Shown one piece after another: positions 22,620 through 41,915 of a DNA stretch of 64,000 nt; positions within the stretch are counted from its first letter, which is position 1, and each line of letters starts with the position of its first letter. The translations under genes were made by a program, and so were the position numbers. The notes beneath the pieces are model-generated. The model saw nothing but the letters and a program-made list of their open reading frames with translations, was not told the origin of the DNA and did no database searches. The stretch is from Leucothrix mucor DSM 2157. GTDB lineage: Bacteria; Pseudomonadota; Gammaproteobacteria; Thiotrichales; Thiotrichaceae. The stretch is taken from NCBI RefSeq assembly GCF_000419525.1, contig NZ_ATTE01000001.1, positions 3,120,501-3,184,500 of the forward strand. Direction: 5' to 3'.

Positions 22620-22695
22620 TGGTGGGGCGTGAGCGATTCGAACGCTCGACCAATTGATTAAAAGTCAACTGCTCTACCGACTGAGCTAACGCCCC
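22620..22695 (-). tRNA. tRNA-Lys (anticodon TTT), copy 2 of a tandem pair
   Basis: 76 bases with encoded CCA. The acceptor GGGGCGT pairs with ACGCCCC, the anticodon loop is CTTTTAA with anticodon TTT, and the T-arm has GTTCGAATC. It is identical in sequence to the copy at 22715-22790, 19 bases upstream, and should come from the same transcript. Confidence 0.97.
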
Positions 22696-22714: not shown

Positions 22715-22790
22715 TGGTGGGGCGTGAGCGATTCGAACGCTCGACCAATTGATTAAAAGTCAACTGCTCTACCGACTGAGCTAACGCCCC
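22715..22790 (-). tRNA. tRNA-Lys (anticodon TTT), copy 1 of a tandem pair
   Basis: 76 bases including CCA, with full cloverleaf pairing and anticodon TTT. It is the promoter-proximal copy. The two copies are the only long direct repeat in this region and need no other explanation. Confidence 0.97.
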
Positions 22791-39131: not shown

Positions 39132-39281
39132 AAAAACAAGAGCGCCCTAAAGCCGGGGGAAGCGTTAGGGCGCGGGGGTTGAGATAGGCGATGACCTTAT
39201 TTTTATTATTGATAGGTCGCTCTTCTCGGGGCTTGCTGGTAAATCTTTTATTATTATTTTGTTGTTTTTGTTTTGTTGTTG
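39132..39281 (-). ncRNA. Candidate sigma-54-dependent small RNA with AAN-rich Hfq/Crc-like sites
   Basis: Predicted start is about 39281, twelve bases below the -12 GC. The RNA would begin CAACAACAAAACAAAAACAA and continue with AATAATAATAAAAG. A hairpin follows whose arms are GCGACC and GGTCATCGC and whose loop is A-rich (ATCAATAATAAAAATAA). The 3' end is a 9-bp stem (GCGCCCTAA at 39173-39165, TTAGGGCGC at 39150-39142) with a C-rich loop region and a TCTTGTTTTT tail. The AAN repeats match the kind of site bound by Hfq with Crc in Pseudomonas CrcZ/CrcY RNAs. The promoter and stem are seen directly; that this is an RNA gene is inferred. Confidence 0.5.
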
Positions 39282-39288
39282 ATTAAGT

Positions 39289-39307
39289 AGTTGCACATCG
39301 CGTGCCA
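39289..39307 (-). promoter_or_regulatory. Sigma-54 (-24/-12) promoter
   Basis: On the minus strand the sequence reads TTGGCACG-CGAT-GTGCAAC. The GG (39306-39305) and GC (39294-39293) are exactly ten bases apart, and the match to TGGCACG-N4-TTGC has one mismatch. Nothing coding lies downstream in that direction before the Nudix gene 350 bases away. Confidence 0.65.
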
Positions 39308-39395: not shown

Positions 39396-39452
39396 TGTCG
39401 CTAAGTGACACTCTGACGACTAAAATGCGTCACATGTTAACGTTGTCACTTA
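39396..39452. promoter_or_regulatory. Repeated TGTCRCTWA half-sites, possible enhancer sites for an RpoN activator
   Basis: TGTCGCTAA (39396-39404) faces TGTCACTTA on the other strand (39410-39402), forming the near-palindrome TGTCGCTAAGTGACA. A third TGTCACTTA is at 39444-39452. They lie about 90-150 bp upstream of the sigma-54 promoter, the usual distance for an enhancer-binding protein. Confidence 0.45.
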
Positions 39453-39638
39453 TTTGGCAGAAGAAATGTCAGCGTTAGGGTAATACCGGTGATCAGTAGC
39501 AGAAAAGTTGCGGCAAAAAGGCAAAGGGAATTGCACAAAAGCAAGCGCAGAGGAATAGGAAAAGCAGCCTGAGATGGGCTATTTTAGAAAAATGTAGAAA
39601 ACTTAACGTTTATTCATGTACCGTTCATCGGGAATTTA

Positions 39639-40448: not shown

Positions 40449-41621
40449 TTAACGTAGACGGTAGCTAACACCCATGTTCAGAGAGGTATCTACTTTTTCG
40501 TTGTTGTTGTCGATGTCATCACTAACTTTTGATGCCTTAGCAGTCAAAGTCAGATCCAACTGGTTGTCCAGGTAGTAACGGAATGTAGAAGCCAAAGTGT
40601 TAGTAGTAACATCTTCAACATCATCTTCGCCAGAGTTGCTGTAATCCAGTAACCAAGCATTTTCCCAGTCAACTTTATCAGTTAGCTCGTGAGTCAATGT
40701 CATTGCATTGTTCACTTGGTAAGCTGTGTCATCATCACCATAAATGGTAGACAGTGAAGCTACGTTAGAGAACTGTGTGCGGTTGTTCAGAGGACGGTGG
40801 TATTCAGCACCAAAATCCAGTGAAGGGTCTCCGCCGTCAGAACCGTCGTAGTTAGTAATAACTGCACCAACACCACCACGTACTAACCAGCCGTACTTAC
40901 GAGTAGAGATGAATTCGTTTTGCAGAACGTCGTTAGCTTTGATTACGCCACCAGCGCCCAGACTTCCACCCAGTGCTTTCTCAATGTCAGCAATCCAGTG
41001 CTGGTCATAGCTGCCGTAGCCGAACTTGCTCTTGTACTCATCTTCACGAGCAACAATGTTAGCAACTTGCTGGTAAACTGCTTTTGAAGGAACCGCTGTC
41101 AGTGCGCCTTGCTCACGCAGTGCTTCAACTAAACGAATCGCTTTAGCCATTGGCGTAACGTTAACAACACGACCGTAACCTAGACCAAGACCTACCTTGG
41201 AGTATGGGTCATCAGCATCTTTCTTCAGACCTAAGTCAGCAGAACCATACCAGAACGCACCTTTTGAACCAGGACGGAAGTAGTTATCTGCAGTGATAGA
41301 ACCGTTAGCCAAGTAAGTGCTGTCTGACTTATCACCGTCAGTAGAACCACGGCTGATTGAACCGTCTGCATAGAAAGATACGCCAACGTTACGGTTAGGG
41401 CTGCTGAATACGCGATCGTAGTCTAAAGACAGCTCTGCATTGTATGCACTTTGGCCTTGGTTACCATCGGTTGTGCTGAACGAGCCATCGATGTATGCAT
41501 CTTCATAAGAAGAAGTCGCTTCAGTGTAATCATATAGAGTTACTTCTGCAGAAGCATTGCTTGCTGCAACAGTCATTAGCGCTGCAGATACTGCAATAGC
41601 CAGTTTAGTATTAACGTTCAT
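40449..41621 (-). CDS. Outer-membrane beta-barrel protein of unknown function
   Basis: A 390-residue protein with a clear signal peptide (MNVNTKLAIAVSAALMTVAA, cleavage after SNASA). The mature part alternates polar and aromatic residues in amphipathic strands, typical of a barrel, and ends NMGVSYRLR rather than the usual terminal Phe. Strands at about 30-150 and 240-390 are interrupted by a soluble, helix-rich stretch (about 155-235). I do not recognise the family. The frame opens five codons earlier at a GTG, but ATG 41621 begins the signal peptide. Low codon diversity suggests high expression. Confidence 0.75.
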   Translation of the reverse strand: MNVNTKLAIAVSAALMTVAASNASAEVTLYDYTEATSSYEDAYIDGSFSTTDGNQGQSAYNAELSLDYDRVFSSPNRNVGVSFYADGSISRGSTDGDKSDSTYLANGSITADNYFRPGSKGAFWYGSADLGLKKDADDPYSKVGLGLGYGRVVNVTPMAKAIRLVEALREQGALTAVPSKAVYQQVANIVAREDEYKSKFGYGSYDQHWIADIEKALGGSLGAGGVIKANDVLQNEFISTRKYGWLVRGGVGAVITNYDGSDGGDPSLDFGAEYHRPLNNRTQFSNVASLSTIYGDDDTAYQVNNAMTLTHELTDKVDWENAWLLDYSNSGEDDVEDVTTNTLASTFRYYLDNQLDLTLTAKASKVSDDIDNNNEKVDTSLNMGVSYRLR

Positions 41622-41915
41622 TACTTTAAATCTCACTTATATTAAATCAAACTTTATGCTCATCAAATTAGAGCAATATGTAGTTCGTGTTGGCCATAGT
41701 GGCCTTTTCGCTATCAATCTTAATAGCTGTTGTAGATCTGAGACAAGAAATGTTTCAAAAAAGTCACTATTATTTTTGAATTTTCTAACAAAGACTCAAA
41801 ACCTACTGAAAATTGGTATTTTTATAACTAATTAGCTATTTGATGCGGACAATTATTACACACGAACATTTACCATGACTGAATACTATGTGGTAAAAGG
41901 TTAATCTTCAAGTTG

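Follow-up and report, generated by a model that had tools for sequence, protein, structure and literature searches.

What lies in the gene-free stretch between the Nudix gene and the zinc protease gene? The window (the whole 64,000-nucleotide stretch of DNA that was analyzed) probably comes from a marine, filament-forming bacterium. None of the listed open reading frames of at least 60 amino acids covers the segment described here, which lies on the minus strand, with the Nudix gene as the next gene beyond it on the same strand and the zinc protease gene as its other neighbor. A preliminary description had proposed an independent small-RNA gene, away from cbrB, and the sequence supports this; the coordinates and the open reading frames likewise agree with the sigma-54–type GG-N10-GC promoter it had placed in gene-free DNA. 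The AAN-rich 5' part, the hairpin with an A-rich loop, and the GC-rich terminator stem that it named are all present, the T-run being imperfect. The features are as follows:

39396..39471, minus strand: upstream region with half-sites of the kind found at pilA, in order TGACA (39471-39467), TGACA (39448-39444), TGACG (39432-39428), CGTCA (39418-39414), TGTCA (39410-39406), and CGACA (39400-39396), the last two forming TGTCA-N5-CGACA
39308-39291, minus strand: sigma-54 -24/-12 promoter TTGGCACGCGATGTGCAA, with GG at 39306-39305 and GC at 39294-39293, exactly GG-N10-GC
39132..39281, minus strand: predicted small RNA of ~150 nt with a predicted start near 39281 (from the fold and a match to our covariance model R1 at G000:C1:3159639-3159744)
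39245..39280, minus strand: 5' AAN-rich tract, a candidate site for the Hfq distal face
39228..39243, minus strand: conserved single-stranded 16-nt motif TTTACCAGCAAGCCCC, a candidate seed (from the alignment of sister copies and the fold)
39181..39227, minus strand: hairpin 1 (from the fold, with covariation in the inner stem)
39197..39210, minus strand: loop of hairpin 1, AATAATAAAAATAA, with AAN triplets, a second candidate Hfq site
39132..39173, minus strand: predicted intrinsic terminator with a GCGCCCTAA stem and a loop containing CCCCC (from the fold and covariation); the stem runs from 39173 to 39142 and is followed by the imperfect T-run TCTTGTTTTT to 39132

The 16-nt motif (39243-39228), the upstream half-sites (39471-39396), and the multicopy nature of the segment go beyond the preliminary description. 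Three of the half-sites are exact TGTCA/TGACA. The sigma-54 pattern TTGGCAY-N6-TGC occurs 49 times in the genome, versus 8 times for the pattern read backward. The 154-nt strand folds at -37.4 kcal/mol against a shuffle mean of -20.4 (z = -4.98), and none of 200 dinucleotide shuffles folds as well. From its sequence, this gene-free stretch very likely makes a small regulatory RNA. Elsewhere in the window, two neighboring tRNA genes (22623-22695 and 22718-22790) have identical scores (75.4 bits).

How widespread is this RNA? The segment is one copy of a multicopy small-RNA family with four units in its own genome; a typical unit consists of a sigma-54 promoter, AAN tracts, the unpaired motif UUUACCAGCAAGCCCC, and two hairpins, one with an AAN loop and the other with a C-rich loop. 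A covariance model built on the core, with the promoter left out, matched 54 of 63 genomes of the order, in all eight genera, at E <= 0.01 per genome—a threshold that should let through ~0.6 chance matches in the 63 genomes combined and near which several matches in distant genera lie. In a class-wide draw of 369 genomes it matched three: the source genome itself, one of the same family (G009), and G416. The last was rejected as false, being opposite an apparent open reading frame and without the conserved motif. Outside the order, neither the model (369 genomes of the class) nor a pattern search found a credible family member. A BLAST query of 381 bases hit 22 of 57 genomes (E <= 0.01); the strong hits span much of the distance from promoter to terminator, and the weak ones, among them those in G041 and G053, are partly chance resemblance of A-rich sequence. 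The pattern TTTACCAGCAAGCCCCN{0,2}GAG recovered 37 stretches from 84,980 species genomes, most of them labeled Leucothrix, Cocleimonas, Thiothrix, or Thiotrichaceae; others came from a "Proteobacteria" metagenome-assembled genome (MAG) contig, a Gammaproteobacteria MAG with a Thiothrix-like unit, two "Aquificaceae" MAG contigs, and a Geobacter MAG. The Geobacter match and seven matches in viral contigs were set aside, as they have no unit anatomy. The two contigs of Aquificaceae MAG 28 (L069 and L091; QOAQ01000052 and QOAQ01000080) carry Cocleimonas-like copies; L069 contains the same DNA as G065, a genome classified in the window's family, so the Aquificaceae label looks wrong. In Rfam no small-RNA family scored above threshold for the segment, the only hits being chance-level ones to mir-9465 (E = 2) and SprD (E = 5.4).

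The helices are maintained by compensatory change. In an alignment of 23 units from two genera, double changes occur at 15 of 16 base pairs and 97.6% of the cells are paired, a level reached by none of 500 shuffles; slid versions of the helices gave 36-50% pairing and double changes at two to six pairs. Nine units from two more genera form a second group with the same layout and double changes in 5 of 15 pairs. Alignment gaps whose lengths are not multiples of three argue against coding. The copies are dispersed, with neighboring genes named mostly by eye (cbiC in the source genome excepted): one occupies the glyS-cbiC interval in the source genome and in G002-G006 (six of the seven genomes of the genus), clpB adjoins a copy in G002 and lies one gene away from a copy in the source genome, and copies lie beside mutS in G003 and G006, that in G006 also adjoining a homolog of the window gene at 40449-41636. 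Some copies stand in tandem, the later units having no promoter of their own. In the source genome, the promoter of the glyS-cbiC copy is a variant one (TTGGCC), preceded by several half-sites. Orthology among the copies was not settled by a tree of 17 units. The firmest check on the preliminary description comes from comparison: promoter through terminator is kept in sister copies with differing surroundings, and both helices covary. In other genera, 17 of 18 distinct loci fetched by the model have a sigma-54 site and at least two half-sites before the unit, the exception (L201) having none; L215 duplicates L212, and some of these genomes had already been matched by BLAST.

What might switch these RNAs on? 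TGTCA/TGACA half-sites number 147, against 17.4 expected from single-base shuffles, in 37 upstream regions that include related strains and are not independent (exact duplicates were removed, and L075 contributes only 84 bp). Most fall 70 to 160 bp upstream of the -24 element, and the most common spacing between them is 10 bp (TGTCA-N5-TGACA, 15 times). Four of the 49 sigma-54–type sites in the genome have at least three half-sites at -170..-50, namely those of pilA, the window RNA, the RNA at C1:4050233, and a divergent RNA-like segment at C1:4136174. In a wrong-spacing control, none of 29 sites has more than one half-site in that interval, and the promoters read by eye as those of glnK and rtcB have none. 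The segment at C1:4136174 (L222 1590, minus strand), upstream of an ftsE-like gene, combines pilA-type half-sites with a terminator-ended segment and two AAN tracts, does not contain the conserved motif, and matches the model weakly (25 bits).

Pilin promoters were surveyed at 31 locus entries (the source genome entered twice), taking the best pilin locus per genome and second pilins only where they lay on the same stretch. Within the family, all 16 distinct loci with a promoter have at least three half-sites in 250 bp, 15 of them at -170..-50; no promoter was found at four in-family entries. Outside the family, 6 of 10 entries have a sigma-54 site, with at most two half-sites each. In L252, another pilin-linked site (TGGCTC) is accompanied by one half-site. 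Over the 37 regions upstream of the RNAs, the CbrB subsites TGTTAC/GTAACA occur 5 times versus 5.1 expected (single-base shuffles), motifs for NtrC, GlrR, and NorR are at background, and the LuxO-type TTGCA-N3-TGCAA has no site. Because the sites upstream of the window RNA match those of pilA, PilR is a likely activator; with the CbrB, NtrC, LuxO, GlrR, and NorR motifs all at background, association with pilA-type sites makes PilR, and not CbrB, the most likely one. The presumed PilR, to which NCBIfam gave no name, is assigned by its place directly downstream of PilS (PF25323, 64 bits). The Pseudomonas PilR motif contains TGTC; no exact PilR motif was found in the accessible papers. According to two reports (PMC6058289 and PMC3262810), PilR is the established activator of pilA elsewhere, and the former describes TGT-N11-AGA and GTCT elements.

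In a set of 50 RNAs, the first 150 nt contain 80 AAN tracts of at least four triplets, where dinucleotide shuffles predict 5.4; this set includes related strains with only exact duplicates removed, so its members are not independent. At least one tract is present in 47 of the 50, with one to three per RNA. The third base is A in 102 triplets, C in 86, G in 36, and T in 149; that it is not A in 271 of 373 points to triplet periodicity rather than mere A-richness. Because the 50 RNAs were chosen for having at least two half-sites (L222 being admitted without the motif), the AAN count is no test of the promoter. The tracts appear suited to the distal face of Hfq and are candidate docking sites, and titration of Hfq is possible. 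For CrcZ, PMC4063720 describes six A-rich stretches open to that face. A search of the retrieved pieces of the source genome found no Hfq gene in them.

Would docking on Hfq be the only function of these RNAs? Units of Leucothrix, Cocleimonas, and Thiothrix carry the C-rich motif UUUACCAGCAAGCCCC with almost no variation, and several other genera have reduced forms such as AGCAAGCCC; in the predicted fold of the window copy the motif is unpaired. Some units have no AAN loop and retain the 16-nt motif and a terminator-like hairpin (L029 1273-, L030 177+, L031 1621+, L091 3326+, L094 126+, and L085 2862+); in L029 and L091 one base of the motif is changed. Such units are mostly the last of a tandem array. 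Retention of the motif in units without the AAN loop suggests a second function, probably base pairing, with the motif as candidate seed. A perfect 12-nt partner for it occurs three times in the source genome, always in copies of the RNA, and no significant pairing was found with 16 pilA leaders (lowest P = 0.075). In G003, a glnK-like gene has a sigma-54 leader (L040 2441-2681) that shares CAACAACAAAACG with the RNA; the corresponding promoter in the source genome (L173) has no TGTCA/TGACA half-sites.

How might these parts work together? The anatomy of the RNA, its covariation and copies, the promoter match, and the half-sites common to pilA can be read from the DNA itself. From them we infer expression, activation by PilR, binding to Hfq, and pairing and/or titration. 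PilR, bound at the TGTCA/TGACA half-sites, would activate sigma-54 RNA polymerase, so that an active type IV pilus program would bring transcription of the RNA along with that of pilA. The ~150-nt transcript would end at its own terminator, dock on Hfq distal faces through its two AAN tracts (in the 5' region and the hairpin loop), and offer the unpaired UUUACCAGCAAGCCCC to mRNAs; at high dose, the multiple copies may in addition titrate Hfq in the manner of CrcZ. We put the chance that the RNA is such a PilR–sigma-54–activated, Hfq-docking, trans-acting regulator, pairing through its C-rich motif and perhaps titrating Hfq, at about even. Exceptions to the typical layout, namely L222 without the motif and the units without an AAN loop, count against it, as do the negative results of the searches for a perfect 12-nt partner outside the RNA copies in the source genome and for pairing with pilA leaders.

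The RNA could instead be a pure Hfq decoy that works like CrcZ and CrcY: its AAN tracts would sequester Hfq and so free A-rich mRNAs from repression, and its C-rich motif would have a structural role or bind a protein. The presence of one to three such tracts near the 5' end (first 150 nt) in 47 of the 50 RNAs, the several units in each of many genomes, and the CrcZ precedent (PMC4063720 and PMC8395346) would all suit a decoy. However, a decoy has no need for a nearly invariant, unpaired 16-nt motif that survives in some units without the AAN loop, and the homologs compared include no true Crc partner; we regard the decoy as a real but unlikely alternative. A different reading, that the RNA is a cis-acting leader or attenuator of the gene downstream (the Nudix gene in the window), draws on the same-strand next gene here, at C1:4050233, and at C1:4136174. 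It is highly improbable, as the downstream genes are unrelated between loci and at several of them the adjoining gene is oriented toward the RNA (glyS in the source genome, mutS in G003 and G006, and clpB in G002, names by eye).

PilR control is itself open to challenge by another sigma-54 enhancer-binding protein that also acts on pilA, such as the unassigned AtoC-like regulator L059. The genome has 13 matches to sigma-54 activators, 10 of them above 60 bits, and of the eight compared with NCBIfam just two, NtrC and NorR, exceeded a named cutoff; the assignment of the sites to PilR, moreover, is by association. Yet pilA-type sites occur at every one of the 16 in-family pilA loci with a promoter found, PilR is the known pilA activator elsewhere (PMC6058289 and PMC3262810), the motifs of the five other activators are at background, and the promoters read by eye as those of glnK and rtcB have no half-sites. 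Another activator seems a distinctly poor prospect, and PilR, with Hfq docking and pairing, remains our preferred account.

As the switches of the RNA resemble that of pilA, it may link surface attachment to the control of other genes. If so, PilR runs a posttranscriptional arm besides the pilin gene, an activator-plus-small-RNA layout known from LuxO-Qrr and CbrB-CrcZ. By title and abstract, the open-license PMC literature yielded no report of a PilR-controlled small RNA, and the open-license literature no small-RNA study of Leucothrix, Cocleimonas, or Thiothrix. We tentatively advance, at slightly less than even chances, the joint reading that this is a previously undescribed RNA family, known to date from this order alone, and the first PilR-controlled small RNA known: a modular molecule with Hfq-docking AAN arrays and one frozen 16-nt pairing motif, in dispersed and tandem copies, through which surface attachment would reprogram many mRNAs. 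The family is now defined and easy to find in genomes of the filamentous and sulfur bacteria Leucothrix, Cocleimonas, and Thiothrix.

How does this RNA compare with known systems? Rfam holds a CrcZ family. The likeness to CrcZ and CrcY drawn in the preliminary description holds for the RpoN-type promoter and the AAN motifs; a CbrB-like regulator and a Crc partner are not supported, and the locus, as that description noted, is not beside cbrB. CrcZ, CrcY, and CrcX of Pseudomonas and Azotobacter likewise have RpoN-type promoters, several A-rich motifs for the Hfq distal face, and redundant copies; the window family instead has TGTCA/TGACA sites in place of the CbrB TGTTAC subsites, ~150-nt units, a conserved C-rich motif, and no Rfam match. 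Published work places CbrB subsites TGTTAC/GTAACA upstream of CrcZ and CrcY (PMC6296734) and CrcZ itself at cbrB-pcnB (PMC8395346); the window copy lies instead by the Nudix and zinc protease genes, and others by glyS-cbiC, clpB, mutS, or ftsE. As to Crc, L050, the nearest of seven homologs in the genome, was rejected: its match to an exonuclease structure scores 348 bits and that to Crc 264, it retains exonuclease III residues lost in Crc, and the GSLY and SQH of Crc are replaced in it by GDWN and SDH. For L049, L051, and L052, no Crc was among the matched solved structures, a comparison that covered four homologs and left out L053-L055. By regulator, locus, and partner, then, the RNA is not a CrcZ member, although its motifs are CrcZ-like. 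The family also hints that RNAs of the CrcZ type, with their Hfq motifs, can occur where Crc and CbrB play no part. By its pilA-type half-sites before a sigma-54 promoter, the window RNA is a candidate member of a PilR–sigma-54 regulon. NrsZ of Pseudomonas, according to PMC8395346, is an RpoN-dependent, NtrC-driven small RNA beside ntrC. The RpoN-type promoter is common to both, whereas in the window family the NtrC motifs are at background and the neighbors differ. The Qrr RNAs of Vibrio are sigma-54–controlled, multicopy, short, and terminator-ended, in all of which the window family is alike, though it has neither the LuxO motif nor an Rfam match. Class II Hfq small RNAs such as ChiX, CyaR, and MgrR carry ARN/AAN distal-face motifs, a terminator, and a pairing region, and they are not known to be controlled by sigma-54 or PilR. 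The window RNA, with a sigma-54–type promoter and no Rfam match, resembles them in its AAN motifs, its terminator, and its candidate pairing region.
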